NCBI GenBank assembly: GCA_000310025.1
Contig: FN649729.1
Span: 4,713,915 to 4,777,914 of the forward strand
From: Ectocarpus siliculosus
Taxonomy: Eukaryota; Sar; Phaeophyceae; Ectocarpales; Ectocarpaceae
DNA: 64,000 nt
Direction: 5' to 3'
Position numbers and translations under genes: made by a program. This document shows, piece after piece, positions 12,830-63,393 of this stretch (the stretch's first letter is position 1; each line of letters begins with the position of its first letter). The notes beneath the pieces are model-generated. The model did not search any database, was not told the DNA's origin, and saw only the letters and a list, made by a program, of their open reading frames with translations.

Positions 12830-14920
12830 ATGGGCTTCCTGGGTATACTGCTATTCTTCGGGACCGCGTCACTGACCTTCACCAGCGCCGTGGACAACGA
12901 TTCTCTCTTCCGAGACCTAGCTGACGACGGCCGCGAAATCATCAAGGTATCGAACGCCCTCTCTGCCGGGCTCCGAGGGCCTGAGGCCAACGGCCCGCCT
13001 CTCGAGCAATCGTTGTCAAGGAGTTTGAAAAACAAACGTTCACACCGCGGCATCAACCACGGCGGAAAAGGCGGCGGTGGTGGCGATCGTGGCGACCGTG
13101 GGCGGAGCAATCGTGACGATCGTGGCCGTCGCGGCAATGGGAATGGCGGTGGTCGCGATCGTGCTGGTGGTGGTCGTCGTGGCGATCGTGAAGGTGGTGC
13201 CCGCGGCGACCGACGTGGTGATGGTCAGTCTGCCTTCACCTGCGAGGATGGCATCCTCGAAGACGGGTATTGCTGCTCGGTAAGACTTCCAGATTCGGTA
13301 CATGTATGTACCACAACGACGGGTTTGCCCGCCGAGCTTGCGGTATTGCTGCATGGCAGCCTCGAGATCGTTTCCGCTTTGTCTCTGATTATCTGGTGTC
13401 AACCTCCCTGGTCCTCGGTGGTACGCCGCCCGACCCTGTATGGGAAGTGGGTGTCTCTCATGTGGCCATCACGCCCAAAATTGAAGTCGTTCAAACCATG
13501 CTGTGAACAACGCTTGTCCAAACGACAGAAAACGTGCGGAGTGGGCGGGTGCGGTGGCGTAGGATGCAGAAGGAGGAACGGCTTGAGGACGGCAGACGAC
13601 TGCTGCTTCTCTCGCATTACCGACCTCTGCTCGGTCACAGGGTGTGCCCCGTGCAAAATGGACGGTGAGTGCTGCTGCTGTTACTGTCGTGTTTGTAGTC
13701 TAATTGCTGTTGTTGTTGTTGTTGTTGTTGTTGTTGTGGTCGTTGTTTGGTAAACGGCCTGGAATCTCAAATGTCACGTACGATTTAGAATATTGATACC
13801 CAATCATTGGCGAGGAATGACGACCGGCAAGTGCGGATTTGTCTTATTGACGCATGCATGGGTTCTTCTCCATAAACAAGCGCGACGATCACCCTTTAGA
13901 CGGCGACGTACTGTACGGTAGAGTCAACAGTAGTTCTGAAACGCTTGTCGGGAGTATTTGAGTCTTCGTTAGTAATTACTTTTACATCGCCGACCCTACT
14001 GTGAATATCATCACCACGTAGTACATACCAACGTTGGTGGTGAATACACCCGTCGCTCACAACTGTCATCGTTAGGGGTGCGGACGTCGCGAAGGCCAGC
14101 GTAGATTCAACGGAGCAAAACCGTTTGAAAGAATCCGTTATGATGCAATCACCAGCATACCTTTGAAATACCGACCCTCCCTGTACTTAATCATGGGTAA
14201 CTCTCCGTTTCGTTCTCCACAACTACACCTGTCTCTTGGTTTTGCTATTCCTCTCTCGAAGACGACGCAGAATTTCCCACGCTAGACCGCGACAATGAAC
14301 GCCAATACCATGGTGGTGATCGTATTGGTGGTGGTCGCCGTGGCGATCGTGGTGGTGGTCGCGATCGTGCTGGTGGTGGTCGTCGTGGCGATCGTGATGG
14401 TGGTGCCCGCGGCGACCGACGTGGTGATGGTCAGTCTGCCTTCACCTGCGAGGATGGCATCCTCGAAGACGGGTATTGCTGCTCGGTAAGACTTCCAGAT
14501 TCGGTACATGTATGTACCACAACGACGGGATTGCCCGCCGAGCTTGCGGTATTGCTGCATGGCAACCTCGAGATCGTTTCCGCTTCGTCTCTGATTATCT
14601 GGTGTCAACCTCCCTGGTCCTCGGTAGTACGCCGCCCGACCCTGTATGGGAAGTGGGTGTCTCTCATATGGCCATCACGCCCAAAATTGAAGTCGTTCAA
14701 ACCATGCTGTGAACAACGCTTGTCCAAACGACAGAAAACGTGCGGAGTGGGCGGGTGCGGTGGCGTAGGATGCAGAAGGAGGAACGGCTTGAGGACGGCA
14801 GACGACTGCTGCTTCTCTCGCATTACCGACCTCTGCTCGGTCACAGGGTGTGCCCCGTGCAAAATGGACGGTGAGTGCTGCTGCTGTTGTCGAGGTTGCT
14901 GTGGTTTGTAGTCTAATTGC

Positions 14921-14957
<37 letters not shown>

Positions 14958-17270
14958 GATGTTGTAGTTGTTGTTGTTGTTGTTGTTGTTGTGTTGTCGC
15001 CGTCGTTGTCGCCGTCGTTGTCGCCGTCGTTGTCGCCGCCGCGACACTATAGCTCATGTAGCCCACGGTCATGACCAAGTCTATTTATTGTACTTCGTCG
15101 GAAAAAATTGACCCAAACTATTACTGGATAACACGTTGAGGCCCTTCCGTCGTTCCTCAGTTGCGTCGTCGGGGGCATTCATGGTGAATACGGTGCACCT
15201 GCGTTGTAGAGGCGGTCGACGAACAGACCATATTGAACGGTCTACATAGAAGATGCATTGGTGATGATGTGGTCACCGGTAGGTGGAAAATCCTGCTCCT
15301 CCGCTTCATGTGCTCATTTCCTTGCTTCGTTTGGGACTAACCGCTCTCTCCAATCATTTTGTTGCCGCGCGAAGACGACGCTGGTCCCACGCCGACGCCT
15401 TCGCCGACGCCGTCACCGACGCCTTCGCCAACGCCTTCACCAACGCCATCGCCGACGCTTTCGCCAACGCTATCGCCGACACCTTCGCCTACGCTTTCGC
15501 CTACGCCTTCACCAACACCATTTCCAACGCCTTCGCCGACACGTCCGCCGACACCTTCACCGACTCCATCACCGACGCTTTCACCAACGCCTTCGCCAAC
15601 ACCTTCGCCTACACAGTCGCCCATGCCCCTTATCCAAGAAGAACAACAAGGAGCTTGCTGCGAAAGCGGATCAAAACACTTTCGCGTGGCAGTGGACAAC
15701 CTAACTCAAGACGAGGTGATGAACGGAACGGCGCCAAAAAATTAGCACATTCGGCATGAGCTCGGCTTGAACAGGTGCTGCTATGTCCGTGCAGGTAGCT
15801 GAGGTCCAACTCCTATTGTAAAGACAAAGCAAGTATGTCTGCTCCCAGACCCACTCGACCACTGTCGAAAGCTTTGTTTCCAGACCTCCGTCGAAGGGCA
15901 CTCAACGAAGAGACCAAACAAAACGTAGTTACTTGTAATCACACAGAACAACAGCTGATGCAATGATAGTCCTCTAATTGCCGAAGCCTGCGTATCATAT
16001 ATATATATTGGCTGGTTGCTGAACAAGCTCGCCGCCCTGATGCCGCCCAACCAATCCAACGAATTGCAACCAGGTCTTCAAGCAGGGCCCCATCACAATT
16101 TTCGCGAGCTGCAACGCTGCTTGGTTCGAAGGTTACGACGCTGTAAGTGGGTTCTACTCCTGGTTTGTTTTTGTTTTCCTTGCAAAGTTTCTCCTCCGGT
16201 ATAAGGGACCGCCATAAACACTAAAAAAAACTAACGCTACATCGTTTTTCGCCTCCTACAGTGTCTGTCGCTTGCTCTTCGTTACCGTTGGCAAGAAACA
16301 GATTTTCAACGAAAATATTTGTTGAAGAAGCTGCCCACGGCAAGAAATGACAATCTGTTGTTTTGTTGCTCGCCCCACCCGCAATTACTATCCACACCGC
16401 CGGTCAGAATTAGTGTCTCTTCCTGCGCTGGTACAGCCGGGTTGTCCGACCAAAAATGCAATATCTCCTCTAATTCGGCGTCACGCCCTCCGCCCCCTTT
16501 CACTCCGTGGAAACTTCTGTACATTCATGTTCAGGCTCAGATGCTGTTGAGTGTGCTGGTCCAGCCGGACGCAGAGTCCGATACGGAGTACGTTATGGTT
16601 TCGTGGGCGGATGAGATCGAGACCGCCACCCACGCGGCGCCATTCTCCACCTTACCACTCCCGACAACTCGACCAGACGAGTACACGTGGACCGACGTTG
16701 GCCCCAACTCCGGGATTATTTCGATCGCGACCGCTTCTGGCCACTCCGTCAGTTTTGACGGTGTGTTGGGTTGTTGCTTGTGCAAAAAACGATATACCTC
16801 AACATTCTTTCTCTGGCGCTGCGTTTCCCTACCAGCCCACCGAACTAACGCAATCACGTTATGATCGATGAGGGCACGTTCGCAAATCGAATTGCATTGG
16901 AGTCCAGTAGAATAAAAATTTATTTATATATTTGTGTTGAATGCCATGCTTTCGATTACCGTTATTGTTGTGAACGCGTACGTACGTGCCTGTCTGCCAA
17001 AATTTCAAGCTACGGAATCAGTAGCGCCAGCGTTTAACTTGGTTCTTTTGCTATTATTGCAACTTCGCTCGCGTGATCGAAACTGACGTTCGCCTTTTTT
17101 TTTGTATATCTTGTTGTTCAGGTGCCGGAATGATGAATACCGTCGTTTCCCGCGAAGACGAGCCTGCCTGGGAATTCGCAAGCCAGATCAGCCCACCGAC
17201 CGACGACTTCATCACCAAGCGCTGCGTCATCATCGGCACCCTCAACGTACACGGGACAAGCACCAACTGA
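12830..17270 (+). CDS. Gene A: secreted Cys-rich modular protein, Pro/Thr stalk
   Basis: Six exons: 12830-13279, 13529-13664, 15375-15715, 16074-16142, 16535-16760 and 17122-17270. Phases match at every junction and the product is 456 residues. The ATG has a strong context (ACCATGG). Order: signal peptide ([14 protein letters not shown]), acidic then Gly/Arg-rich linker, Cys module part 1 ([12 protein letters not shown]), Cys module part 2 in exon 2 ([20 protein letters not shown]), a PTPSPTPS stalk in exon 3, then a C-terminal domain of about 170 residues ([39 protein letters not shown]). It is likely exported and disulfide-bonded, and the Pro/Thr stalk could carry glycans. The exon structure is supported by gene B (59668-63393, minus), which has the same splice sites. 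The Cys module recalls short secreted algal and oomycete modules; this is from memory. The C-terminal domain is unrecognised. A second copy of exons 1-2 sits in the second intron, so which exon 2 is used is uncertain. Confidence 0.8.
14297..14945 (+). repeat. Tandem duplication of gene A exons 1 (3' part) and 2
   Basis: The stretch repeats 13091-13739 at an offset of 1206 bp with only scattered differences. It includes the 3' end of exon 1 (to 14485, donor TCG|GTAAGA), the intron, and a complete exon 2 copy (14735-14870, donor GACG|GTGAGT). Splice sites and reading frames are intact, but the signal peptide is not repeated. It lies inside gene A between exon 2 and exon 3. Phases would allow exon 3 to join either exon 2, or both Cys units to be included only if another acceptor exists. 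Confidence 0.85.
14920..15050 (+). repeat. (TTG)n and GTCGTTGTCGCC microsatellite
   Basis: A run of TTG triplets followed by tandem GTCGTTGTCGCC units, within a gene A intron. A shorter TTG run sits at the equivalent place in the other copy (13706-13740). Confidence 0.9.
15390..15625 (+). repeat. Repeat encoding the Pro-Thr/Pro-Ser stalk of gene A
   Basis: Degenerate six-base units (CCNACG/CCTTCG-like) encode alternating PT and PS pairs, about 75 residues. The unit length keeps all frames open, which produces long spurious frames on both strands. Confidence 0.9.
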
Positions 17271-18482
17271 CGCCGAAGCCTTCAATGGTCACATGGATGA
17301 CGGAGGTGCTGAGAGGTATACATAAAATACATGATCTGCCAATATTTATATTGAAAAATTGAGTATGAAACCTGGCTGGTACTCTTTTAGGTAGCAGAAA
17401 TATCTCAGCCCCACGGAGCACGTGTTTATTGGAAATGGGCATGTTTCCAAACAATGTTCACAAACGTCGACTCCGATAATTCGGGACTAGCTGCTCGCTG
17501 GCTCTTATGTTGGGTTCAGGGACAATGGGGTCTTTTCGCTAATACGATGGGTTTTGACGATTAATCGCTCAGAGGTGCGAGTGTGCCGGGGAGGTAGTGC
17601 TCCCGCAACTTGTTTTTTTTTTCTGGCTCAGTTAAAGGGCACCGGAGACTCATTGGCCGCTGTTCTTTAAACTTTCATTCAAATTGGAAGTGATGCTCAT
17701 GGTGCGAAAACTTAGATAGGCAGGGATTGCCTGGTTGGTCATTGTTGTGGCTCAAACGTCGCCAAAGTACGTACGAGGAAAATGTGATTGTATTGTTCAC
17801 GTGGAAAGAGCCGCATCCGATTCTGGCAATGTAACGAACAGTAGTGGTGTGTTTGGCGTCGAGGGAAATACATATACTACATCGGATAGGGCGAAGGGTC
17901 ACTCGAGTAGGCCGCTCTGATTAGCACTTTTCACTTTTCACTTGTATGAGTAAAAACGCGTGAAGTAGGTGAAGAGCGGGAGTGAAAAGCAGGAAGACCA
18001 GTGTGATGAATGTATGGCCAATATGGGCCTTTAGTGGAACAGAAAGTGCCTGTATCAACCTTTCTTTTGTTGTCGAGGAAATATTCCCGAGCACGTAGAT
18101 ACGCTTCAATATGTATTCTGATGGATCTACTAATGCAAAAAGGTTTTGCGCGAGGTTCTGAGGTTCTGAAATTAGCGTGGAGCTTTGCTTTCGGATACTG
18201 TAAACATCTACTAGGCACTGTCCGGACCAGTTGCGAAGCACCGCGCTATACTCTGGTCTTGGAAAATCGTTTCGAGTTTGAGTCGATCGGAACTTAGGCC
18301 TTCGTTGTAGATATATGTCAAGGAGTTGGCGCAATGTACTTCTGTACATCTAATTCCAGCCTGAAAGAATCTGTATTCAACACAACAGAAATAGCGAGCC
18401 ACGAATGAACGAATTGTTGGTCAACTTGAACGACATTGTGCGGGTGAGAATCTCGGTTGTTACCATATGTATGTACTCCCCA

Positions 18483-18598
18483 AACCCAAATACAATTAAT
18501 TTATTAAATCAAACACCCCCATATATACATGTGTGTTCAAAACCCAAAAACAATTAATTAATTAAATCAAACACCCCCATATATATATATGTGTGTGT
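18483..18598. repeat. 58-bp tandem duplication, AT-rich
   Basis: Two copies starting at 18483 and 18541 share ACAATTAATT, TTAAATCAAACACC and a (TA)n(TG)n end. The dinucleotide tail is longer in the second copy. Confidence 0.8.
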
Positions 18599-18900
18599 GT
18601 TCAAGAAAACACGGTTTCGTTTTTTTTCGTGTTTTATTGGTCGATAAGAACGACCCTAATGAATGGTTTGATTTCCATATCGCGCCGACCAACCACACAA
18701 TCACGGCCGACATGCCGTACAACAACGTATCCTCACATTCCTGCAGGAGAACATATAGTCTACTTCGTACGGGTTTAGGAACGAAACAGGAAAAGGGGAA
18801 TAAGCAGCTCATTTTGTTGAATTTTGCTGACCCAAGCCGCAAGCTGTGCGCAAACAAACCATCCCCTGACAATCATCTCATGCAGGGAGCTCAGCCTTGA
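18589..18900 (+). CDS. Hypothetical short open frame
   Basis: 103 codons from ATG to TGA. After a poor start within the TG repeat, the sequence reads KNDPNEWFDFHIAP, TITADMPYNNV and a basic Lys/Gln-rich segment, which has the look of coding sequence. No domain is recognised and no flanking exons were joined. It may be one exon of a lost or partial gene, or chance. Confidence 0.2.
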   Translation: MCVCSRKHGFVFFRVLLVDKNDPNEWFDFHIAPTNHTITADMPYNNVSSHSCRRTYSLLRTGLGTKQEKGNKQLILLNFADPSRKLCANKPSPDNHLMQGAQP

Positions 18901-21520
18901 TAGAAATATTCACTCAACACCGAAAGAACACAGATTCGAGGCCATTCTCTGATGCGTTCAGGTAGAAGTCTTTATTGTTCTGATCTTGTTTATCGTTTCG
19001 GAAAGCCCTCCCGTTCAGATCGCTAGATAGTCTATATCAACTCTATTTGTGTTTTTTCGCACTGCATGGCGGGAAAGACGTCGATCGGCGATGGGAACAT
19101 CCAATGGCGAGGAGAGGGGATTCTCCTGAGCTTGGCACACCACGCCGGTGCTTGTGCTGCACATCGGCATGTTTGTCGCATGTATGTAGCACGTGACTGC
19201 TGTGCGTGGCGAAGCACTGCTCGCTTGACTATCGTCGATGTTATATAACCGATGCTCCAAAAACCCGGAATTGAATTGCACGCATATATATATATATGCT
19301 GAAGAAACCTTCTCCTCAGAAGCATTTTTTGTAGACTTTGCCTCACGCAGAGAACACAAAACCGGCGCCCTGCACGGCCATGCGTATGCTGTAGACTAGA
19401 CAGTTTTGACAATAGGTTGTGGCAATACGCTGACACTTTTGTGCACTGTCCAGGTAGCCTACGGGATGCATGGATGTGGCTCGCATTCAATGTCCCATCG
19501 GTTATATGTGTGTGTGTAGACTAGTCTAACGAAAAAAAGCAGAAGATTGCAGAGACAGAGGCGTTGAAATCTGAGTTTTATGAGGAGCGGAAGATAAAAT
19601 ATCTGTTGGCCAATCAGAGAGCAGCAGCATTGAGTCAGCGTGAAAGTGTTTGAAACCTGACTTGAAGGGTAGACTTGGGGGCACTTGTTGGTCTATGGCT
19701 TCTCAGCGGGGGCCCCGTGGTTGGTTGGGGGCCCCTGTCTTGGGACATACTGTAGACCTCACGCACACCCAACCATTTGGTGTACGCGCGATACATACTG
19801 TGAAATGGGCAGCAGGGAGCAGCAGGGCGCAGACAACGGCACGCAGGGTCCTGCGGCCCTTGCCCACGGTTACCATCGTCGAATGAAGGCCATCAACATG
19901 GTGTGCGGGTTTATTGTCCTGGAGGTACATCATGTACATGGGTTTGTTGTTCTGGAGGTAGAGTAGTATGAATACGTAGGCACATAGTGCTGTAGTGCGC
20001 CATCATTCCTGATAGCCGGGTGCATGTTCAACACACGCCTTTTCCTTGCGGTAAGTGATGGCATACACAACACCGGTATGGGTGCTGTCCGCCCGGGTTT
20101 TACAAGATCGGGAAAAGGATTAGAAAAGAAAGTACCCGGAGTAGGCTCGTGCGTTGTTACTATTGGCTCGTTTACCACGCAGCAGCAGCGTTGAGTGTTC
20201 GCGTGTGTGCATATGTATAGGAAGGATCTGAGGACGCGCACGACAGCGCCGGCCGCTGAGGACGGTTCTGTGTTCCGTAGATGAAGGGACCTGCTGTGGT
20301 ACCTGTTGTGGCAGACTTGGATGAGACTGCGTTGCCCCCATGCTGCGTCAGCCTGTACTGTGTGGGGCACTCTCTTTCTCCTCTGTCTGTCGTGCGTTTG
20401 TCCTGCGGATCTAATACAAGCCATGAACGAGACTTTCTAGGCACTGGACACAAATACGGGCATACCCGGCAAACACTCCGGCTCTAGGAGTGATCAACAT
20501 TGAGTGTGGGGGCGCCAGTGTGATTTGCAGAGAGGAGGGATGGTGTTCAACACCATTAGCTAGGAGGGGGGGTGGTGTAAATCATCATCAAAGAGAGGGA
20601 GGCAACTATAATGGGTGACCATACTAGCACGGAAGGCACAGGTCGCACACTAAACCCTCCCGCACAAGTGTAGAGAGGCGTACATCAGTACGTACTGCAT
20701 CAATGCTGGTGCGTAGCAGCGTCAGCGTGTGGGTGTTGTTGGTGTGATGTGCCTCTCTCCAAGAGGAGGCCGCTGCCGCCAACTTGCTGCCGCTGCAAAA
20801 AAAATTGAACAAGAGCGGTGACCGAGAGACAGACCCCCAACCAAACGAGTATCTCTCCTCTCGCCTCCTCCGCCGTAGCTAACAGCAGTAAAGGTATCAA
20901 CAGGCACCTCGTCTCAAAATAATTCCTTGGGGCAGTATTCGCATGGCAGGCCGGGGTGCGGGTGGGCGGATGCTCTGGCTGAGTGTGGCCGTATCGTATA
21001 TCTCAATGTACGTTCTGCCCATCAGCAGTAGTGTCGCGTGATACTGTAACGAACATATCACCAGGGAGTTTGCCTCAAACGAGCCAACGAGGCATGAGTC
21101 TATGGGAGTATGAAACGCAATTAACCACACCGGACCTCGCTATGCGGACACATCTTCGAGTCGTCTACGGGAAATCACGATCAAGCCGTCGTTTCATGAG
21201 CTAGACGCGCGGTTGCCATTGCAGTTGAAGTGCCCGCATGTATGGCGGGCGTCGGCGAGTCCGAGGTTGCTATGCTAATGTTTTGCTATCCCTCACTCAC
21301 TGGAGAGGCAGCATTTTGGCGCTTATTCCGCAGGTCAGTTAGACTATTGGGGTAGTCTATGGATGTGTGCTCAGTCGTCCATGGCGTTGCGGGCGGTTCT
21401 GGCTACAGCAGTACATCCAGCAGTATAGCAAGGCCTGCAACCTTTAGGAACATGTGCCGCATTCTCCCAGAATAGGAAGGTCTTGCCGGGTGTGATCAGC
21501 TTGGTGTAGTTTCAAGGGTG

Positions 21521-21720
21521 CACCTGTAGCCATTCGGCTACCCTGCCAGGGTGGGGAAATTTCACCCTGTCAAGGTCACCCTGGAACTACGCTGTAGTCT
21601 TGACCCAAACGCAGGGTGACGCAGGGTGGGTACCCTGCCAGGGTACTGATCCCACACCCTGTACGTACCCTGCCACTCAGGGACCCTGGCGGGGTGCACA
21701 CCCTGGGAAAACCCTGTAGA
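21521..21720. repeat. CCAGGGT palindrome cluster with terminal box
   Basis: It begins with a 25-bp box (21521-21545, core TAGCCATTCGGCTA) whose inverse occurs at 26741-26766. It is followed by at least eight ACCCTG or CAGGGT motifs, including TACCCTGCCAGGGTA, a palindrome at 21631-21645. Confidence 0.7.
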
Positions 21721-21757
21721 GATCGTGTCAGTCAGTGGTACTAACGGGGCCGAAAAA

Positions 21758-21970
21758 ATGGAGATTTTCCTTTCCTTTCGATATTTGTTTGGTTATTTTC
21801 TTGTCGCGTCCCTCGCAGCAGCATTTGGTGTTCCTACACGTACAGCAACGCTCAAGCTCATCCACGCCATTTACAGTAGAATGCATCCCAAAACCCAAAC
21901 TTCGACGACCACTTTCGACATTGCAAAACGTAGTCACGACGTGCATCAACCAACTCAGGACGCATCGTGA
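21758..21970 (+). CDS. Possible small secreted protein
   Basis: A 70-residue frame starting at the second Met of a slightly longer frame. The first 22 residues (MEIFLSFRYLFGYFLVASLAAA) form a signal-peptide-like hydrophobic segment ending in small residues. The rest is basic and Thr-rich with no Cys. AATAAA-like sequence follows near 22000. A chance frame cannot be excluded. Confidence 0.2.
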   Translation: MEIFLSFRYLFGYFLVASLAAAFGVPTRTATLKLIHAIYSRMHPKTQTSTTTFDIAKRSHDVHQPTQDAS

Positions 21971-22410
21971 ACCACACAATTTATTAACATAAATACAATA
22001 AAAAATCCAAAACAAAATGTATCAACCCATTCCTTCACTACCGAAAAATCGCACCCCTTGCCTTCAGGTTCACGCAACTTGCATGTACCCGCTCAAGCCC
22101 ACATTCTTGTGCATACGGAGACTCAACTCAACGAAATAAAGGTCCGACCAAACCTACTTGCCCCATGCCCGTAGCACCGCCATACTTGGGTGCCCCTCCC
22201 CCCGGCGACACGCAAAATAACCTCTGCGTTGTGTGTATCACGTCCAAGGTACGCACGCACTTGTCAAAATGCAGGCGTATGACGCGTGCCTCGATAACAC
22301 ACGTGATAAAATAAAAGTTTCACCGGTTCACGATATAGACTGCCTACAGACTATTGCCGAACGCTATGTACAAGCAACCTGCTCCCTCCCACTCCCACCA
22401 AACACCATAC

Positions 22411-25137
22411 CAAGCGCTAAGGCCGAGAACACTGCCAGCAATTTCGCGACCCAGGCGGATGTTGAGTGCTGATCCGTCCATCTCGTCGAGAAATGCGCCG
22501 AGCTCGGCATCGTCGACGTGCACGTTTGCGGCCGGGGTGTCTTCCACGATGCGATTGTCGTCCCCGCAGGCGCACGGGGACAGGAAGCGCATGATCTTGG
22601 GGTTGCCGCAGTGCGACTTGGCGATGGTCAGGAGTCCGGAGGCTATGCGACGCGGGCCCGTTATGAACTGCAGCATGGAGTACCAGAAACTGTTCCAAAG
22701 CACGTAGGGAAAGGGAAGGCATGGATGCGCAACGACATGAAACAAAAAGTTCACGTTTGATTCCAGAGCGGGCGTAAACTCGATTAGGTGGGGTGACAAG
22801 CAAAATGCGCGACGAGCATAAAGAGCATGAGAATATTACTGTTTTATTCCGTGACGTACAACATGGAGGTGAACGATTGTGTTGGTAACAGCGCAAGAGT
22901 AGGAGGTGGGGGGGGGGGTCTGAAAAAATGAAAATATCACCCCCGGGGCGACTCTAATCGGGGAATTCCGAAACGTACAGAAGAAAACGGAACACGTCTG
23001 GCCGAAACTGCATCTGCACGAAGCGATACTTTGGAGTAAACAGATCAAGAGGGACGGGGGGCAGTCACTGCATGCGTGATGTCACGCATACCTTACCTGC
23101 TCCTTCAAACCAGCAGGACCGCCGGCTCTCGACGTGCACGAAATCGTTGACAACTCCAAACGATCGCAAGTTAAAACCGGGAACAACAGTGCGACAACGC
23201 AATGGAGAAAACCACACCCAGATTCGGCAACGACGACCAGCAAACAGCGAGTACGCTGTGCTTGACTTATGCTCAACCGGAGAGAAAAAGCTCATTCCAC
23301 CACGTGTCCAATTTGGAAACAGCAGGAACCGCCCGCCATGTAGCTCACGAGGAGACATACTCCCCCTTCTTGCAGTTGAGGTTGTGGAAAGGTCGGTTCC
23401 GGAAAGCTCACCTCTCTTGGAATATGCCCTGGCGTTGGTGGTGCTGAATCCACCGTTGCAAAGCCTGCCACACGCCCTCGCCTTCCTCGTGCACTTGCAC
23501 ACGATACTCTCGTGTTTGCCAACCTCGTTGACCGGGTGGGCGGCGATGTTGTTCGCGGTGTGCAGTAGAGCCGACGTGACGACCTGGCGTACAACATGAC
23601 GTCAGCAGGCAGCGGGGGAGAAAAAGGTGCTGCTGAACGTGTGCATGTGGAGACATGTGAAGCGGTGCAGTGCGTGTACCGTGTTGCTGCTTCCTACCGG
23701 CAATCGAAATGTTGTGTACATGCTCCGGCGTTCGTATATTCTTATCGTCTCAATATTTTCAAGGGTTTACTCGGTACGTGTTTTTTAGGCGGACACGTTT
23801 TCGGCGGTATTGCTATTTGGCGGTATATGTTTTGGCGGTATCGGCTTTGGCGGTGGCGGTACGAAAAAAATCGGCGGCATTTTTTCGGCTGTTTTGCTGG
23901 CGGTACCTGTTTTAGCGTTCGGCGGTGATGCGTTTTTCGGCGGTATCGACTTTGGCGGTGGCGGTAAAACAATAAAACGGCGGTATTAATTCGGCGGTAA
24001 TGCCATACGGCGGTGTCGTGTTGGCGGTTGGCGGTATTCGCGTTTTTCGGCGGTATCGACTTTGGCGGTGGCGGTAAACCCGAAAAACGGCGGTAAAACG
24101 GCGCCCACCACGGCGGTATTTTGACGGCGGCAATGATTGCAAATGGTCACAACTTCAAGCGACACCAAACAACAGCGCCCGAACAGACGGCAACCGTCTT
24201 TTCCGAAGATTGACCACGTTCTTCCATGGTTTTGTCGTTTTCACCGGTGACTTTCACATTTCAACAAAAAACATGAGACGGATGTCTCCAGGTTTACGTG
24301 TGGACAAGTTACCCTTGGGATGTGTGGTGTGGGTACACACCGGTTCAACCTCTGGTGGAGAGGCTGAAGAGCACGGATAGTTGTGTTCTGAGTCAGGGGG
24401 GAATTGAGCCTACTGCAGCAGGTTCAGCGTCCAGCATACGCTGACTCCATCTGTGGCAACACCCCTAAGGTAGATCTCCGACAGGTCATCTGGCGTGACA
24501 ATCTACGACAGTCTGGCATTCACAACATAAAACACACTCGAATGCTTGACATTCGCTTTGACTGTACTTTGGATGAGACAAGGTCTCTACCCACTCACCC
24601 GTTGGTAGGCGGTAATGCACCTATGGGCGGTAATTTTTCGGCGGTATTGCCATAGACTACGGCGGTATTTTTTCGGCGATATTGTCATAAGGCGGTAACA
24701 GTTTTGGCGGTCGGCGGTATTGCGTTTTTCGGCGGTATCGACTTTGGCGGTGGCGGTACAATCGAGAAACGGCGGTAAGACGTATACCGGTACCGCCCAC
24801 CACGGCGGTATTAATATTTTCCTGCTGCGCGCTGGAGTGTTCTCTTACAACATCAGGAGGGCGAATCTCTGTATTTCCTCACATGTGCTAATACACGACT
24901 TCGTCTCGTGGGGACGCGGAACAAGCGATGGGTTTGAACTGCGATCGTGAATATAGGTGTGAACATGAAAATAAGTCACGGGGGGACACCAGTCGTTGAG
25001 GGCAAATCAGATGGAATCAAATTATCACCTGCGCCACGAAGTCCTCGTGTAGCCGATCCTCTTCCAGCAGTTGCCTCTCGGATAGGTCCTGACGTGTCGA
25101 CGCCATGTGCGCCTTGGTGACTCGCAAGACCATGTCC
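22411..25137 (-). CDS. Unrecognised gene, internal exons only
   Basis: Minus-strand exons 25029-25137, 23412-23583 and 23097-23153 join with matching phases. They read DMVLRVTKAHM, a charged helix (SERQLLEEDRLHEDFVAQ), then VVTSALLHTANNIAAHPVNE, VCKCTRKARACGRLC and a short aromatic/Cys segment. A further exon at 22411-22689 (FWYSMLQFITGPRRIASG, CGNPKIMRFLSPCACGDD, an acidic stretch) ends at a GTATGG donor. Its phase does not match the previous exon, so at least one small exon between them is missing. Neither end of the gene was found. Splice sites are good and the amino-acid use looks coding, but no family is recognised. The largest intron holds the GGCGGTA repeat array. Confidence 0.45.
23795..24130 (+). 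repeat. GGCGGTA-rich array, first block
   Basis: Irregular units of 10-20 bases built on GGCGGTAT and TTTTTCGG. A longer unit (about 38 bp, CGTTTTTCGGCGGTATCGAC and continuation) recurs at about 23930 and 24041, and again in the second block at about 24723. Confidence 0.85.
24600..24815 (+). repeat. GGCGGTA-rich array, second block
   Basis: The same motif family as 23795-24130, separated from it by about 470 bp of unrelated sequence. Both blocks end with CCCACCACGGCGGTATT, so they look like two copies of one repeat element. Confidence 0.85.
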
Positions 25138-27830: not shown

Positions 27831-27845
27831 CTCTATCGTTTTCCT

Positions 27846-28508: not shown

Positions 28509-28628
28509 AAATGAATGTTCCATACCCGATACCACAGGAAAAGAACGGTTCTGCAGAGGCCAGTGAAGGTTGACGTCGGCGCACCCAATCTCCCACACTA
28601 CTGGCAGTTTTGCTAAGCCGCTCGGGCA

Positions 28629-29185
28629 GCCCATGGGCCGCCCATGGGCACTTCATGTGCTACCCATGAGCTGTCTATGAGCTGCCCATGGGTGGGCTCA
28701 TGTGCAGCCCATGAACTGCCCACGAAGTGCCCACCGTGGGCACTTCAATCTAGAACTCCGCCACCAGAATACCAACCATGGGTAGGCCCATGTGCAGCCC
28801 ATGAACTGCCCACGAAGTGCCCACCGTGGTACTTCAATCTAGAACTTCGCCACCAGAATACCAACCTACGTAGAACTTCGCCAACGGCACATCAACCTAC
28901 AGTAGAACTTAGCCACCCAGTGCCAACCTGTCACGTATCGTGCGGGCTTGGGGTTAGGGATAGGGTTAGAGTTTGGGTTTTTTGCTGTAATAGTGCCCCG
29001 TCCTAAGCCGATAATGCTGTTTAGGAGTACAATGGTTCCGGTTGAAGGGCACTCATTGACGGTCCATGGGCCGCCCATGGGCGGCCCATGGGCTGCCCAC
29101 GGGCTACCCATGGGCTTGCCCGTGGCCATTCCCCATGGGCAGCCCATGCGCACTTCGGTGCCCATGGACAGTCCATGGGTGCCCT
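28629..29185. repeat. GCCCATGGGC palindrome array with 90-bp direct repeat
   Basis: Ten-base palindromes GCCCATGGGC and close variants occur at 28629-28700 and again at 29070-29180. Between them a 90-bp unit is directly repeated (28687-28776 and 28777-28865; shared AAGTGCCCACCGTGG and TCAATCTAGAAC), with a third partial copy. A TTAGGG-like run lies at 28950-28975. Confidence 0.8.
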
Positions 29186-29305
29186 GTGGGTGGTTTAGCG
29201 AAACTGTAGAAAGCGTGGGAGACCCGGCGCACCTCATCGAAGCAACTGTAGCCATTATCCATGCCCAAATCAGCAACAAGTACATCCGAGCTTGGTACAG
29301 TCTTT

Positions 29306-55000: not shown

Positions 55001-55397
55001 GCGTCAGCGTCAAAACAATGCAGCAAGAATGTCGACCTTACTCTGCAAACAGCATGCTTGGTAGCACTTTCTCCACCTCGCTGTGTGCTTGCCCCAAGCC
55101 TGAATGAATGGGGTATGCCCCCGACACCCCTGAACTACTACCTACCGTAGCAATACACATATTCTTGTGTTTTTCTTTGAGGCCCTCCATATCCTTGTCC
55201 TTATCCCGGGTTGCCTCCAGGACCTGGCAAAGGAGCTCATGGCTAGGGAACCTGTCCCGTGTAGTAGGAACGTGGCCACCGTGGACTGCTCCCGGCGGCC
55301 ATCAGTCAAACCGGTGGAATCGAATCGGGAGCCATCGTCAAGAGAGGCGAAGAAACGGGCGCTGAATCAGGCAAGCCACGGACGGTGCATTTTTTAG
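52079..55397 (+). CDS. Six-exon coiled-coil protein, unrecognised
   Basis: Exons 52079-52247, 52936-53303, 53463-53708, 54016-54168, 54816-54953 and 55221-55397 join in phase to give 416 residues from ATG to TAG. The N-terminus is basic (TARSTRRGSVLRREVLERLR), then Gly-rich, Gln-run and Arg-rich (ERRRSRRRESSLRIK). Exon 3 has VPPLGPLDDPPGVVYLDGKP and a helix (LFDLGTRRRSLVEEIRAQNR); exon 4 is a long charged coiled coil (KRAKEADEDREKTESKLKRR). The fifth intron uses a GC donor, AAG|GCGAGT, with an otherwise perfect consensus. A second GC donor (CAG|GCAAGC) at about 55369 could join a strong acceptor at 55503 and replace the last residues. Family unknown; composition suits a cytoskeletal or ciliary scaffold, but that is a guess. 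Confidence 0.6.
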
Positions 55398-55939
55398 CTC
55401 CTAACACGACCATGGCCAAAGGCAGAACTGCGTCGAGTTTGGGCACAAGGGCGGTCGTGCAGGGACCAGTGTATGTTGCTGTCGTCGTTTTCTTCTGCAT
55501 CAGCGTGGGCCCTGGACGTATGTTGTATACCCGACGTAAGACGCTAGGCGCGTCCTCGAAAGATGGAAAGCTGTTATTTTTCTAGGCATGCTACCAACGC
55601 CAAGGTCAGGGCTCTGGATTTTCTCTCGCCATAGGTATTCAGTCGCCCCCAACCCTTTGTGCAAATTTTGATAGCGTGGGTCAGAGGCGGTCGATCCCGA
55701 TGACTCTTCCTCCTGCGGCTCAAAGCACCTTAAGCTAGGTCGTGAGTTCTCAAAGCGCGGTATTTTTTCGCGCGTATTCTTAGCAAGGGTGGCGCGTTGC
55801 GACGGAAGTCGTGTTCGCAGAGGCGCAACAGTGAGCAAAGAAGCAATCTCAACAAAACTTTAAAGAAAAAACAAGACTGAGAAGAGGACATAGCAGACGC
55901 AACGATGGGCCGCGGCCCAACACAGCGGAAGAGCACAAT

Positions 55940-56083
55940 CTAATTCTTTCTCCGAACACTATTATATTAATACAATGCTGCAGGGATGGCGCGAGGTGGT
56001 AGAAGCGGTGTCTAATTCTTTCTCCGAACACTACTATATTAATACAATGCTGCAGGGATGGCGCGAGGTGGTAGAAGCGGTGT
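55940..56083 (+). repeat. 72-bp tandem duplication spanning a start codon
   Basis: Two copies (55940-56011, 56012-56083) differ at one base. Each contains an ATG followed by LQGWREVVEAV. As 72 is a multiple of three, the two starts are in the same frame. Confidence 0.9.
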
Positions 56084-58600
56084 TCCCAGAAGAAGCCGAC
56101 CGACGCCGGCAAGTGGTCCGCTTTCGAGAGGGGTCTGGGGAGGAGGACAGGGAGCGCAAGGTGCGAAAATGACCCCAGAGCGCTTGATAGAAGGTTGCCG
56201 TGAAGGCGAGAGCGACCGACTTGTTCGGGCAAGGGAGGACGGGGGGGGGGTTCTGGGTTTGTGCATCCTGTCAAAGTCAGGGTGGAGCGCGCTGAACACT
56301 TGCCGATTGCCTACATACCCAGCAAGTCTCAGGAGAACGGCAAGCGAGGGGAGGGGGGGTTCGGGCTTCGGACAAAGGTGGTACAATAGCGGGGATAGGC
56401 TCCTCGCATCATCCTATCGTTCTTTCTGTCTTCTAAGGTGTATTGTTTATATTATTCTGTATATATATATATTGTATGGAGTATGCAATTTTTCTCTTCA
56501 CTGTTCTTACGCGGATTCTTCTGCGTCCTGAAGAAAATGTCGTGGGGCTCCGTGGGGGTAACCACACCGAACGAAATGCTTTTCGAACACTCTGACTTCC
56601 CCGTACTTCTTGACAATCTCCGTTGATCAAGGCGCTAGCAAATGCGTGCCGGTAATAGTAACCTCATTCGTGTGCTGCGCTGGTCACGGTGTGCGCGTAC
56701 GCATATTGCCCTCGAAGGAACACACAGGATTGATACAGCGTTGCCAAGTTTTTGTTTTGAGGCCTCTCATTGCCCTCATTGTTGTTAATTTGGTGCCGAA
56801 TGGCCCACGAAAAGGAAGCAAGCATTCGAGGGTTCATGGCGGCGACCACACCCAAGGAGCACGTAGAGTTTCTCATCGCAGCAATGGATCCCGCTAGGGC
56901 CAACGACCTCTCCTCCGTGATTAAGGTATGCCTTCAACTCGTACACAGCCCCTGCGAATCAATTTTCCCCCACGCTGGATTTGGCGTGTACCGTGGCCGT
57001 TGTCGCTGCTTGCTGATCGTGATGCGTACGGTGTCTACATCTAATTTCAGGTAGTCCTATGATCAACTTCTCGTTGTGGTCGGTCAGAAAAATATGTTCT
57101 CGAGAAACACGTTGTCCTGTGTTTGGTGGAATTACGTGCGTATCTGCTTGTTTTTCCAATACGCCGCAGCGACCCATGATATGGCGCCATATCGAGGGAG
57201 AAGGAGTTTCGCGCAATCGGCATAGCTGATGGCTATGGTATTGCTGGTGCTTTTGATGATGACGATAGTGATAATGCTACTGCTGTCGCTGACATTTTGT
57301 TTCAGAGGTTGGCGTTTTTCTTCGGCGATCTTCGCTCTTGACTAAACACCACGTGCTGCGTAAGCAGCTTTCGAGAACGCATTTGCACGACGATATGCCT
57401 GACCATCAGTATTCTCCCCTACACAACAATCGTTAAATAATTACTGGCTATCCTTGCTTGTTTGCAGTGTCTGTTGCTGCACTACACTGGTCCCGTGGCA
57501 GACGAGCTGGACATCTTGCTCGGAGGAAGGATTGGCGGAATGGAGGTGTGTCGAAAAAATCGAACATGAAGAAGCCACTGTGTTTCATAGCCGCAATAGA
57601 TGCCACGTGGAACAGAAAAAAGAAGCGGCAATGTCAACGCTATACCGCTGTATTGTTGGTAACAACTTCTTCGCGTGTTGCTCGAAGGCTCAATATGTCT
57701 AAGGGAAATCCGTATGAAACTGCCCTTTGGCACGCTTGAGAACTTTTAGAAATTCTTACCCACCCTACTTTGAGCAGAGAAGACTCCGCCATGCACGTAA
57801 TTGGTCGGCAGGGTATTTCCATGCCGTTTTGTCTCCCCGAGGTTGAAACCGGGCCACGAGCGATTTCAAGCGGCCACGAAAGTACTCAGGCTACCCTTTG
57901 TAAAGGAACTCGAACGACTGACACTTCGCGATCCGTTTCTGAAATTCAGTCTCGGCTGCACCCCAGGTCACACGGCCGCCTTGACGTCTAGGTCATCATC
58001 TAGCCTGTGCCTCTATGCTCGGCCGACCGACCAGTTTCGAGACCTGTTGTGTGTCTCACGGTCCCGACCCTTCACTATGCGGTACCTCCCGCTTTGTAGG
58101 GGCACCTCCCGTCTTTGCCCCACATGCGTTGCAGCGATCCACGTTGGTTCAATGTCTTCCCAGCCGGTGTGGAGAACCTCGCAGTTCGTGCAGGCCTTAT
58201 TTATTAGACACGAGAGGTATTACGTTTTGCAGCATGTGGATGGAAGTGACCACCCATTCGTCCCTTCCCCATGCCAACCAACAACAGAAACCTGCGACTT
58301 CAATAATATTCCAGACTGAATGTCAGCTCCTACCCCCCACCGAACAAGCAGATTCAAGAGCTGCTGGAGATGAGCTTGGAGGCGCTGGACCACGCGCACA
58401 CCGCCCATGTTCCCTCGATTCTCATGCTGCAGTGGCTGCTGGGCAGGGCTCCGCACCTCCGGTCTCTACTGCTTCAAGGAGGCGTGGTCTCTCGAGCGTT
58501 TCGTCGGCTGGAGAGGGCCGAGGCCAAGGGATTCGGGCCAGGGGAACGAGCGATGCAGTACGCCACGCTGTTTCTCGCCACAGGGCTAATGTTTGAGTGA
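56047..58600 (+). CDS. Helical protein, unrecognised, partly resolved
   Basis: Exon 56047-56160 starts at ATG (a second in-frame ATG is at 55975) and reads MLQGWREVVEAVFPEEADRR, a charged helix. Exons 56815-56925 (TPKEHVEFLIAAMDPARAND) and 57468-57545 (LLLHYTGPVADELDILLGG) join in phase 0. A further coding-like piece near 57846-57970 (LPFVKELERLTLRDPFLKF) does not join in phase, so an exon is missing or misplaced. The last exon, about 58352-58600, encodes IQELLEMSLEALDHAHTAHV, MLQWLLGRAPHLRSLLLQ and ERAMQYATLFLATGLMFE before TGA. The amphipathic helices suggest an all-helical interaction protein. No family is recognised. Confidence 0.45.
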
Positions 58601-59667
58601 ATGAGAGCCGCGCTGGAAGCCCGACATTGTTTGCGCCCGCCCGTGGTTGGCCTTGTGACCGTCGAGTTGCGATTTTGGTCGGATGAGGCTGACCCAAGAC
58701 GCCTTTTTGGCTGTGTTGAAAGAAAAAATGGGGCGTTCGCTTGTACTGCCCAGAACGCGGAGATATATCTTGGCCGTGTGTGTGGCCGAGATCCGTCGTT
58801 GGTACAGCATGGTAGGAAACACGTTTCAGGCTTGATTTCAGGATCATAACAGATATTGAGCGCGATTATTTTCGGCTCTTGTTTCGACGACACGTGGTAA
58901 GCACGTCTGGCGTCAACATGCACATCAATGGGCAACATGTTATTGTCCGTCTCTGACTCACACAAATGACACGGCGTCGTCAGAAAGGGCAAATCCATCC
59001 GGATGAAAGCGGGCGATGAACAATCTTATCCCTCTCGCAGCCGTGAATTCTACATTGCTCTCTTAGCAACATGGCTCGTTCCAGAACATGAAAACATGAA
59101 CCGTCCGTAACTCAACACCTCATAGGTTGACGAAGCCTTCCTGTTTGGGAAACACTCTCAGATACACCTCATGAACTAAACAAGTTCCTTCCACCAGTGT
59201 TCCCTAACTACCCAACCCGTCTTCCCTTACCTAAAAGCTGTTTCTTCGAAGTAGTAATACTTGGTGACTTAACTATAGCGTTTTTTAGGCACAACGAACA
59301 AACCGTTGAACTTACTTCACCCCGTTGAACTTGACGCAATTCTAAATTGATTTCACAGCCGTTTGACACAATGAATCGATATAAAAGCTGTCTCGTCCTC
59401 ATTAACACCAGTATGTGTGCGTCTACCCTCCCACAATGCAGAGCCCGGGGCGCACGGGATGACTACCAGAGGCCCGTTTTTATCGCGCCCTCTCGTTGCT
59501 AATGTTCCCCGAAAAAACAAAAGAACATAACCAGGTCGCCCAAGAACGGACATTGCGTGTTGAGCTTGTTTTCTACGATAGTCTACTTTGGATGCGCGGC
59601 CTGCATACATGCATTCGTCCCTCGTCGTTTTTGCTTTCATGCGTTTTCGAAAATCCTCCGTGTCTAA
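58601..59667. other. Intergenic between convergent genes
   Basis: The stretch separates the plus-strand helical gene from the convergent minus-strand gene B. No exon-like frame with splice sites was seen. Confidence 0.5.
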
Positions 59668-62600
59668 TCAATAAACTTCGAGGGGGCCCATGATGATGCA
59701 GCGCTTGGTTCCCATGTCGTCAGTTTCCTTGATCCTGCTCGCGCACCCCCAGCCGGGCTCTTCTTCGGAGGACACGACGGAAGCCATAATGCTAGAACCT
59801 GAATAGGAAAATTGCAGGGCAGGGAAAAAAATGTGAATCGCAGCACTCATGGCAAGAGTACATAGACCATGCCTCGAACCGTGAGCGAGTGGGCTACAAC
59901 GTTGCTATCCATGTAGACTGCTAAGATTGATGCAAGGGGTACACGAAACACGATGAGTGGTCAGTACTCTCCGCACCCCTTGCTTGTCTGCTACACCCGC
60001 AAGACCGCTGCGGCATTCAATTGCTAACACTTCCATTCGTTGAAGGTGTCGAGCATGTCTCATAGGTCGCCGAGACCACGACTTTGATGAGGGATGCAGC
60101 ACCTGGAAATGATGAGAGAAAAAGAAGCACTTCCCAAGATTACGCCAAAGAAAGTACTGGAATGTGCAAACTCATACGAAAGAATTCAAACCAGCCCACC
60201 GTCGAAGCCGACGTAGTGCCCAGAAGCCGTCGCGATCGAAATCATGCCGTAGCTGCCGACATCGGTCCACGTGTACTCGGCCAAGTTGAGGGACGTTGGA
60301 AAGGTGGAGTAAGGTTCATCGGAGGTGGCGGTCTGAATATCGTCCTCCCACGAAGTCATGACGTACTCCATTTCAGAGTCGGAGTCCCCTGGCGTCACTA
60401 ATACACTCAGTATCACCCTCGCCTAGAAAACAGAAAACGGAGGGGGGGGAGGGGGTCCGTGAAGACGAGGTATCTGTTTGAAAGCAGCTCTACCAGAGTG
60501 CCTGAAGGAGAAAAAGTAAACCGGTGAAAACTGAAGATAGGATGATGAGCGGTGGTGCTGCAGCCTGCTGTCACCGCACCTTGTTGTACACCGACTAAAG
60601 CAAGCAAGTGAACAGGTGGGCGCTGGGGGTAGGGCTCTTGTTCGGGGGAGTTGATTAAGTTGAAGAGGGGATAGGGGAGGCGCGGGCCACCTTCGGAGAG
60701 GGCGCCTTGGACAACATCTTGAGTCTGTGGGCAGTCCGAGAGGAGAAAATGTATCTAATGAATATGAAGTGGATGAATGCAGGCATTTTATGAGATGGAG
60801 GACGTTGGTAGGAAATTTCCCTCGGTTAGTGGCACATGAGCTTTCTGGAGTAGTCGTCATTTGTGGTAAATGATTTCCCCCCCAAAACAAAATGTTTGTG
60901 TCGAAGAACAACACAGAGACGATTGAATTTTGTGTGTGTCTATTTTTCTTGCAGGTATTGCAGTTTTCAAATGTTGTGTCAGGGGAAGACATGGCCAGTT
61001 CAAAGAACAATAAAGAGAAAGAGCATGAACTTACAGGGAATGCTTCATTGTCAGCCATGCAGCCCGCGAAGATGCTGATGGGGCCATTGCTGTAGACCTG
61101 ATTATTTTGATCGGACAAAGTCGGTCAGGGCGGCGAACGTGATCAAGCAAGCTTAAAAAGGACAACATACCTACAACTGACCCGATGTTTCTTCTGCATC
61201 ATTGATCGTATCTGCTTTCGAGCGTTCTCTGCTTGCTGGCGGGATGAAGGTGAGGTATTCTGAAGTCTCTATGCTTCTTTGGGCGTCCCTACAGACGCAG
61301 TTACATGGTCATCGCTCTCACCAAACAATACCGGATGTCTACACAAGACCTTTGAGGGAAACACCGCCTTCTGCTGTGCTTCTACGCAACGTTGAGTCTC
61401 ATGTTGAGCATTTTTCAACGGGTTGCTCTTGTTCAATGTTCTCTCTCCCACAAGGGATGCAAGGAATGGTGCAGAGAACTCTTCAACTCGATTCCACACC
61501 AAATCTGCAAGCGTCGCCTTCAATATTCGAGCCACCAATTCCACTCTTCATCTTCACCTCCTCCTGTACTCCGTCATCTACTACAACGCGCAGTAGTTCG
61601 GATGTCTTGTTGCAGCAGCTTCCGTCGCCGTCAGACTCCTCATCGCCGTCTTCCTCTCCGCCGTCTTCCTCTCCGCCGTCTTCCTCTCCGCCGTCTTCTT
61701 GTTCGCTGTCTTCGTCGCAATCTTCTTGGTTGGGTTTCTTTCTGCGTCCATGTTCTCCACGTTTCGGCTCACGTTCAGGCTTGCGCTTAGGTTCGCGTTC
61801 AGGCTTGCGCTCAGGCTCGCTTTCTGGATCGCGGTCTGCTTCAGGTTCTGGGTCGTTCTCTTCGTCTCCGCCGTCTTCGTCTTCACTGTCTTCATCGCAA
61901 TCTTCTTGGTTGCGTTTGCGCCCACGTTTTTCACGTTTCGGCTCACGTTCAGGTTCAGGTTTACGTTCGTGTTCGCGTTCATCTTCATGCTCTGGTTCGC
62001 TCTCTGGGTCGGTCTCTAGGTCATCCTCTGGGTTGGGGAGGGTAGGTACGATACGGCATCGCGTTGACGAGGGAACGACGACAGAAGAAGAATAGGGGAA
62101 CAATTAAGCTGATGATTCTCAGACCGGCTAGGTAACCAAAACGTTCCTGCTATGCGAAGTGAGTCATAAAACGGCATCGCTTATTCATAACCAATGCCCT
62201 TCGGCCTATGGTTAGCTCTGAACACACAATAAAGGTGACCCAACAAGTTCCAGTAGATCGGATTAGTAGATACGCAAAACGTAGATGTGCGGTGCCCGAC
62301 AATATGAGTGTCTATGGGCAACGCACCAAATGATCGCCCCAGGAATCAGGTTCGTTTCCGCCAGCGTGTTGGCGTCGATAATGTTAACTACTCTACGTGG
62401 GTGGTGGACGCACTCGCGAGTATGTGGAGAACCAAACGGTAAAGGTGGTCGTCCCATCTGAAGGAGGTACGTATGCATGCGTCCGCGTAGCCACTCACGT
62501 CACGAGGAATTAGTCATTTTTTCTGATCCATGTTGGGGCTGGCTGATATTTTAGAATCAGTTTCCACGAAAACCGTTTTTAGAAGCAGTAGTTTTCAAGG

Positions 62601-63393
62601 CAACGGGCTAGGTTCCTGTTTACATGCGAAACAATATTTGAAGAAACACGTACCATCCATCATGCATGGGGCACAGCCTTTGACGGAGCAGGGTTCGGTG
62701 ATGTGGGAGAAGCAACAGTCGTCCGCCGTCGTCACGTCGTTCCTCGAACCGCAACCGGTACCACCGCACCCGCCCTCGCCGCACATTTTCTGTCGGTCAG
62801 ATTGGTTAATGTTCAAAGGCGGTGACGATAATAAGAAAGATCCTACGTTTTTTCTTGGGAGAAGGGTGACACAATGCCGACGCCTCATTAGTACACAAAG
62901 CTGTCAGTCGTGGAGAAAAGGCATTTCGACACGTTTTCCCTGCTCAAACGTGCACCCATGTGGTGGACCCAATTCGGCTCGTGTAAGTTTTTTTCAGTAC
63001 CGTCATGACTAGTTTTTATTTTAAAAGTCTCACCGAGCAGCAGTATCCGTCTTCCAGGATACCGTTCTCGCAGAGGAAGCCAGCCCCACCACTTCCTCTA
63101 CCGCCACCACGGTGGTGACGCCCACCGCCATCTTCTCCTTCGCCGCTGCTGCCGCTGTCGCTGGATCTCTTGTGCCCGCTCTTGCCGCCATGGCCGTTGT
63201 TGGTCAACTCTCTCCGCCACGATCGCTTGCGGGGGAGGTCGTCGGCGTGGGACCCGCGAATGCCGGCCGAAAGGGGATGTGACAGCTCGGCCAACTTTCG
63301 GCCGTTATCATCTTGGAGGGAATCATGATCGCTGGCGCCGACAGAGACCAGCACCGCGGCTCCGAAAAATAGCAGGCAGCCCGAGCCACGCAT
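59668..63393 (-). CDS. Gene B: secreted Cys-rich modular protein, charged stalk
   Basis: Minus-strand exons 63034-63393, 62654-62789, 61558-62027, 61035-61097, 60200-60422 and 59668-59798 join in phase to give 460 residues. Order: signal peptide (MRGSGCLLFFGAAVLVSVGA), linker with a basic patch (PRKRSWRREL) and a Gly/Ser/His-rich stretch, Cys module part 1 ([13 protein letters not shown]), part 2 (CGEGGCGGTGC, DDCC, GCAPC), then a stalk of about 130 residues made of Glu/Arg/Lys/Pro and Asp/Glu repeats with NQEDCDEDSE twice, then the C-terminal domain ([44 protein letters not shown]). It is a full paralogue of gene A (12830-17270, plus): exon 2 is 136 nt in both, and every intron phase agrees. 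It is probably exported; the charged stalk could bind polyanionic wall polymers or metal ions, which is speculation. An in-frame Met at 63600 is rejected because the signal peptide would be buried. Confidence 0.82.
61620..62010 (-). repeat. Repeats encoding the charged stalk of gene B
   Basis: Purine-rich (minus strand) short repeats encode EPER/EPKRKPER units and a GGEEDGGEED tract (three near-identical 15-base units at about 61646-61691). A larger unit of EPxR block plus NQEDCDEDSE occurs twice. Confidence 0.85.

Follow-up and report, generated by a model that had tools for sequence, protein, structure and literature searches.

Gene structure and conservation of the pair

The window, by which we mean the whole 64,000-nucleotide stretch that was analysed (G000:C4:4713915-4777914), holds two genes on opposite strands that resemble each other at both ends and are an inverted paralogous pair. 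An earlier, sequence-only reading had placed gene A at 12830-17270 (+) and gene B at 63393-59668 (-), ends that are borne out here, and had described both as six-exon genes with five introns at the same place and phase and an exon 2 of 136 nt. The five common introns (phases 0, 1, 0, 0 and 1 in both genes) and the length of exon 2 in A and in B stand, but gene A has eight exons, not six. Intron borders are GT..AG throughout. The comparison proteins P0001 to P0005 named below come from Ectocarpus sp. 4, 6 and 8 and represent gene models rather than transcripts.

12830-17270, + strand: gene A, eight exons, 576 residues
12830-13279, +: A exon 1, signal-peptide-like start, Gly/Arg/Asp-rich linker and first part of Cys module 1; junction fits P0004 and P0005
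13529-13664, +: A exon 2 (136 nt), remainder of Cys module 1
14262-14485, +: A exon 3 (phase 1 start), own short linker, Gly/Arg-rich linker and opening part of Cys module 2; also in P0004 and P0005
14735-14870, +: A exon 4 (136 nt), same sequence as exon 2, remainder of Cys module 2
15375-15715, +: A exon 5, stalk of P/T/S repeats in 12-nt units and beginning of the C-terminal domain
16074-16142, +: A exon 6 (69 nt), C-terminal domain
16535-16760, +: A exon 7, C-terminal domain
17122-17270, +: A exon 8, end of the C-terminal domain and stop
63393-59668, - strand: gene B, six exons, 460 residues
63034-63393, -: B exon 1, signal-peptide-like start, linker and first part of the Cys module; junction fits P0002 and P0003
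62654-62789, -: B exon 2 (136 nt), remainder of the Cys module
61558-62027, -: B exon 3, stalk of charged E/D/K/R/P repeats with a doubled 180-nt unit and beginning of the C-terminal domain
61035-61097, -: B exon 4 (63 nt), C-terminal domain
60200-60422, -: B exon 5, C-terminal domain
59668-59798, -: B exon 6, end of the C-terminal domain and stop

All seven junctions of A could be placed gap-free in P0004 (sp. 6) and P0005 (sp. 4), as could all five of B in P0002 (sp. 8) and P0003 (sp. 4), and 7 to 10 of the 10 residues around each junction were identical to those of the Ectocarpus model proteins. P0001 reaches three of the five B junctions, and its start looks like another stalk frame. Both copies of intron 1 in gene A (13280-13528 and 14486-14734, +) are 249 nt long and free of stops in frame, so that an unspliced copy would keep the frame open and lengthen the protein; this intron is spliced out in the sp. 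4 and sp. 6 models, and its counterpart in B has 244 nt, which is not a multiple of three.

Alignment of the two spliced proteins, a check proposed in the sequence-only reading, joined the two ends and left the stalks unaligned. By blastp the N-terminal parts were 46% identical over 193 columns and the C-terminal parts 52% identical over 168 columns, confirming that A and B share an N-terminus, a Cys region and a C-terminal domain. At the nucleotide level, identity was 68-79% in exon 2 and in the three final exons, compared to 60-63% after shuffling, and exon 1 showed 69%, compared to 64%. The stalk-bearing exon reached 59%, compared to 61% in shuffled sequence, which amounts to no alignment and agrees with the claim that the stalks are unrelated. 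Values of dN/dS between A and B (Nei-Gojobori script) were about 0.44 in the head, 0.21 in the Cys module and 0.45 in the C-terminal domain, indicating that the coding frames are constrained. The signal peptides were judged by eye.

The top named match to the C-terminal domain of B was P0001 from Ectocarpus sp. 6 AP-2014 (98% identical), and that to the C-terminal domain of A was P0004, also from sp. 6 (96%). These two proteins are apparently encoded on one contig, and the pair is therefore probably linked in that species as well. A single-sequence search (E <= 0.001) found no third paralogue in the window or in the rest of the same genome (189 Mb, 492 contigs). Parts of the A stalk, the intron repeats and the Gly/Arg linker had DNA matches at five places on other contigs, which we take to be low-complexity matches.

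Likeness between the two genes extends to one intron and to one flank. The branch-point motif is CTRAY, and a possible branch-point region occurs in the intron before the short exon of each gene:

16030-16040, +: CGCCGCCCTGA, 33 nt before A exon 6
61125-61135, -: CGCCGCCCTGA, the same 11-mer, 27 nt before B exon 4

With one mismatch allowed, the 11-mer was found at three places in the window, a number reached in 15 of 100 shuffles. Among six comparisons of matching introns, only the pair that carries it stood out (score 16.5, reached in 1 of 200 shuffles), the next best pair being equalled in 55 of 200. Conservation of the intron before the 69/63-nt exon thus appears real but modest, and the conserved branch-point region noticed earlier before exon 4 (exon 6 of A) is upheld at that strength. 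The 400-base flanks upstream of the start codons (12430-12829, + and 63394-63793, -) also aligned, with a score of 18.4 against a shuffle maximum of 17.5 (0 of 200), and could possibly represent a shared promoter or 5' leader; the 400 bases downstream gave no alignment beyond shuffles (40 of 200). Upstream of gene A, at 6298-7719 (+), lies a reading frame with Pfam Integrase_H2C2 and rve domains that probably belongs to a retroelement.

Two module copies in gene A

The Cys region, described earlier as a two-part Cys module, is instead one module of about 57 residues, usually with 10 Cys, that is cut by an internal intron. Exons 3 and 4 of gene A are a second copy of it, forming a frame-keeping, phase 1-1 two-exon unit, so that the duplication leaves the reading frame intact.

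13122-13745, +: duplicated tract copy 1, partner 14331-14958
14331-14958, +: duplicated tract copy 2, partner 13122-13745
14038-14282, +: probably an older, diverged portion of this same tandem duplication, 73% identical to 15182-15392, spanning the exon 3 acceptor

The two tract copies were identical in 604 of 634 columns, 16 of the columns being gaps, and mismatches numbered 2 in the 136 nt at the end of exons 1 and 3, 5 in the 249 nt of the intron and none in the 136 nt of exons 2 and 4, after which the duplicated tract continues into a repeat-rich stretch. The more distant likeness, between 14038-14282 and 15182-15392, comprised 150 identities in 205 aligned bases, with a score of 21.4 where the best of 1000 dinucleotide shuffles scored 20.7, and it spans the acceptor and the first bases of exons 3 and 5.

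Comparison among species suggests that the duplication is old and the similarity of the copies maintained. In the window, in sp. 6 and in sp. 4 alike, the two 63-residue module copies are identical to each other, and the sp. 4 protein differs from that of the window at the same four residues in both copies. The linker that belongs to copy 2 is common to all three, indicating that the duplication is older than the species split. These observations point to one tandem duplication of about 1.2 kb, of which about 0.6 kb was likely homogenised later. Gene conversion is the simplest account of the near-identity and is probably what keeps the two copies alike, in which case gene A would offer a clean natural case of a duplicated module whose copies stay the same.

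Copies that are nearly identical over about 620 bases are of the kind that assemblers and annotators can mishandle, and the second module pair could in principle be an artefact of assembly or annotation, the true gene having six exons. We give this explanation hardly any credence, since exon 3 has a stretch of its own that is absent from exon 1, the two-module layout recurs in P0004 and P0005 from two other species, the latter with its own substitutions in both copies, and the diverged outer part of the duplication is itself probable.

The Cys module family and its exon borders

To delimit the family we searched with a chain of seven module pieces; of 6105 candidates, 83 proteins matched up to E 10, and these included P0002 and P0003. 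In 65 of 86 fetched proteins a pattern picked out 130 modules, which were made into a 57-position profile without use of the A and B modules; by this pattern, which excludes A and B, 129 of the 130 have 10 Cys. Outside the A/B family, 81 proteins carry the module (i-Evalue < 1e-3), 65 of which had supplied profile seeds and 16 of which had not. P0004 and P0005 pass the profile, P0002 and P0003 missed the filtered cut-off and P0001 is without a module; in an unfiltered search the A copies scored 24.8 bits each over positions 1-57 and the B module 25.1 bits.

In the four A-type modules that were scored, Cys 4 and Cys 5 are separated by four residues and an extra Cys stands just ahead of APC. In the 206 other modules the spacing of Cys 4 and 5 was two residues in 166 and three in 10 (30 unparsed), and the extra Cys was found in none (18 unparsed). 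Profile scores and spacing together place the A and B modules as a divergent branch of a brown-algal 10-Cys module family, and the extra Cys and wider spacing may point to another ligand or to disulfide bonding with a partner.

The named carriers are nearly all brown algae, including Ectocarpus, Scytosiphon, Pylaiella, Ascophyllum, Laminaria, Choristocarpus, Sphacelaria and Hapterophycus, together with P0011, which bears an Undaria-like code. Carriers from elsewhere were a diatom, Odontella (P0072), and a Deltaproteobacteria MAG (P0084), and many carriers come from metagenomes without an organism name. In the proteins scanned, the modules were not covered by any Pfam or NCBIfam model. The module array of P0011 gave a predicted fold (30 rows; mean pLDDT 84.0, pTM 0.46) with no match in the PDB; in a viral library the module fold had two weak matches, to Satyrvirus and Tupanvirus proteins (E 0.05 and 0.36). 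A viral origin was considered and set aside, as no relative was confirmed in viral contigs among 10 stretches found with two C-terminal patterns and 382 found with one module pattern. A narrow test of bacterial genomes with one module sequence (534 stretches) likewise confirmed none, P0084 being labelled Deltaproteobacteria. We found no printed account of the module in titles and the openings of abstracts, or in the portions consulted of PMC11468063, PMC8307928 and PMC6426991, although an account may be in print.

Within its own genome the module is usually bounded by phase-1 introns, which is a mark of exon shuffling. A search with one B module returned 41 matches at E up to 10 on several contigs, eight of them at E <= 0.001, including three from A and B; 30 matches were taken as loci and six regions were added, giving 34 module rows. 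A phase-1 G|GT donor was found by script just after the module in 27 of the 34 rows (A and B contributing three), compared to 584 of 20000 random places (2.9%), although the rows are not independent, array rows being paralogues and overlapping loci repeating at least one row. Of the remaining seven, two end in a stop codon and five, by eye, have a phase-1 donor further on or A in place of G. On the upstream side, the whole module lies in one frame in 30 rows; 28 of these show a YAG no more than 29 nt away, and in 26 of the 28 the nearest YAG, which is not a proven acceptor, gives phase 1, where one third would be expected. The modules of A and B end GA(C/T) G|GT, with the phase-1 intron directly after the module, and the internal phase-0 intron after CCS is common to A, B and genes on contigs C15 (L020, L021) and C26 (L028). 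About 0.62 Mb beyond the window (G000:C4:5399500-5436000) Cys-module exons stand in a tandem array, most of them with phase-1 introns on their flanks; the array resembles module-only proteins such as P0008 (Esi_0531_0003).

Linkers, the C-terminal domain and possible function

The stalk of A is a run of 12-nt P/T/S units and that of B consists of charged repeats with a 180-nt doubled unit. In both genes the exon that carries the stalk continues into the conserved C-terminal domain and encodes its first ~22 residues, which rules out exchange of the stalk as a whole exon. The earlier proposal of a swapped middle thus holds as regards a freely changing linker, but not as a plain exon swap. Both stalks are tandem-repeat tracts, and repeat growth inside the exon would explain why they differ; the linker would drift by repeat slippage, since it would only space the two ends. 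The offset between the last APC and the CC in the C-terminal domain varies between orthologues, being 100 in A, 100 in P0004 and 86 in P0005, and 143 in B and 133 in both P0002 and P0003. A P/T-rich linker stands beside the module in 17 of 81 carriers by our own rule, and charged runs like those of B occur anywhere in the protein in two of 81, so the A stalk appears to resemble linkers beside some other modules, with the charged stalk of B the odd one. The P/T/S-rich backbone sought in an arabinogalactan-type check was present in A and absent from B.

At the sensitivity used, the C-terminal domain of about 160 residues is shown to be restricted to A, B and their Ectocarpus orthologues. Its five database relatives, found in a set of 5.8 billion proteins (one query, up to E 10), are all from Ectocarpus; the set held no match outside the genus in a search that needs shared 5-residue words, so that distant relatives may exist. 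No Pfam family was found for any of five sequences up to E 10, the best profile hit among PDB sequences had E 0.69 over 59 residues, and the 81 module carriers gave no meaningful match (best E 0.74). The earlier statement that this domain matches no known family is therefore sustained, and a match to a common family, named there as one outcome that would refute the proposed matrix or adhesion family, was not found. The brown-algal and oomycete proteomes suggested there for searching were covered to the extent that the protein set includes them. Four Cys are invariant in five aligned sequences, from which AlphaFold2 gave no usable fold (mean pLDDT 31.6).

The company that the module keeps offers an indication of its role. 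Pfam accessions were present in 41 of the 81 carriers and absent from 40, and by our own sorting 33 of the 41 were polysaccharide-related, a count that has no background rate of such domains beside it and in which orthologous carriers from related Ectocarpus species are numerous and do not count as independent cases. The 33 comprise beta-helix/NosD (9), WSC (8) and polysaccharide deacetylase (8), with one each of SASA esterase, dockerin, alginate lyase 2, and accessions which we take to be GH114, chitin-binding, GH26, GH17 and ricin-type lectin. The other eight are LRR (2), CHAP (2), reprolysin, subtilase, an Ig_J label and PF22842 (one each); the PF22842 carrier, P0032, has weak beta-helix and chondroitinase-B-like matches. 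By the same uncontrolled sorting, the module is attached to different types of carbohydrate-active enzyme. Several polysaccharide deacetylases (P0048, P0053, P0059, P0061 and others), all metagenome proteins, have three or four Cys modules.

Three carriers are linked to alginate. P0026 is named 'Mannuronan C-5-epimerase N-terminal fragment', P0068 combines the module with Alginate_lyase2, and P0047 (E. siliculosus 'FirrV-1-B30 precursor') has a P/T linker, WSC at 514-599 and the Cys module at 622-674. According to PMC6426991, the E. siliculosus proteins that stand closest to the proven alginate lyase SjAly bear the name 'FirrV-1-B30 precursor', and four of these relatives have C-terminal extensions; the link between P0047 and SjAly is through the shared protein name.

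Taken together, these observations lead us to lean towards the view that A and B encode secreted mosaic proteins of the cell wall, or matrix, in which the module docks on wall polysaccharide, followed by a changeable linker and an orphan C-terminal domain. The proteins would be secreted, and the Cys module or modules would bind most likely alginate or sulfated fucan; gene A, with two docking modules, could bind more tightly by avidity than B, with one. The linker would set the reach, perhaps glycosylated in A (P/T/S) and strongly charged in B, and the C-terminal domain would carry the specific function, a second binding site being more likely than an enzyme. The matrix-type family with a changeable stalk proposed earlier is thus supported to the extent that A and B are paralogous, apparently secreted modular proteins. 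It is also conceivable, though we place this broader proposal somewhat below an even chance, that brown algae use an undescribed carbohydrate-binding Cys module as a phase 1-1 exon for building wall proteins, in the way that EGF-like exons serve animals, with A and B a recent product that combines the module, a free linker and a new domain. Brown algae evolved complex multicellularity and a wall of their own independently of animals and plants, and to our knowledge few of their wall proteins are known. A shuffled module that ties orphan domains to the enzymes that make and degrade alginate would, if confirmed, provide a handle for listing them across the group.

Other functions can be postulated from the same evidence. 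The module also occurs with LRR (P0014, P0045), reprolysin (P0021) and a subtilase accession (P0080), it fills proteins that have no Pfam domain (nine modules in P0006, seven in P0008) and the array at 5.40-5.44 Mb of contig C4, and its fold has no match in the PDB, all of which would suit a protein-protein or protease-control module such as a granulin- or inhibitor-like knot, with A and B acting in signalling or defence instead of wall binding. The preponderance of polysaccharide-related carriers (33 of 41), including the three alginate-linked types, makes this rather unlikely in our judgement. Less likely still is an enzymatic role, in which the C-terminal domain would belong to an undescribed kind of enzyme that acts on polymers of the wall, and A and B would be CAZyme-like proteins targeted by their Cys modules. 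Their layout is that of P0047 in reverse (catalytic-type domain, P/T linker, binding modules), and many residues are invariant, including W, D, E, H and the four Cys, among only five sequences of one genus; yet neither Pfam nor PDB sequences furnished a family, constraint on the domain is loose for a catalytic one (dN/dS about 0.45), and it is found only in Ectocarpus.

A and B can be compared with several known systems. They share with P0026 and P0047 the same module and order of Cys, and with P0047 the P/T linker, and the module of the C15 gene, which has the same internal intron after CCS as A and B, matches that of P0047 by eye; P0026 differs in having a beta-helix enzyme domain and P0047 in its enzyme-type N-terminal part, whereas A and B have an unrelated orphan domain. 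P0010 of Scytosiphon promiscuus has five modules with P/T linkers, is 56% identical to the A module over 64 columns and has a near-A junction, but no C-terminal orphan domain was found in this partial record. Brown-algal WSC-domain proteins are similar in having a Cys-rich module of secreted proteins, and WSC accompanies the module in eight of the 41 carriers; A (in its six-exon version) and B differ in having no WSC match, with no Pfam family up to E 1. The EsV-1-7 (IMMEDIATE UPRIGHT) proteins are a Cys-rich brown-algal family whose motif spacing is presumably unlike that of this module. Exon shuffling has been described in the brown-algal ROCO family (PMC11378527), but those genes encode ROC-COR GTPases.

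Between the two genes, the window also contains local repeats at 23797-24812, with several copies of a ~110-nt unit rich in GGCGGTA, and short CCATGGGC/GGGCAGCCCAT-type repeats at 28624-29185, with an inverted self-match at 29046-29185.
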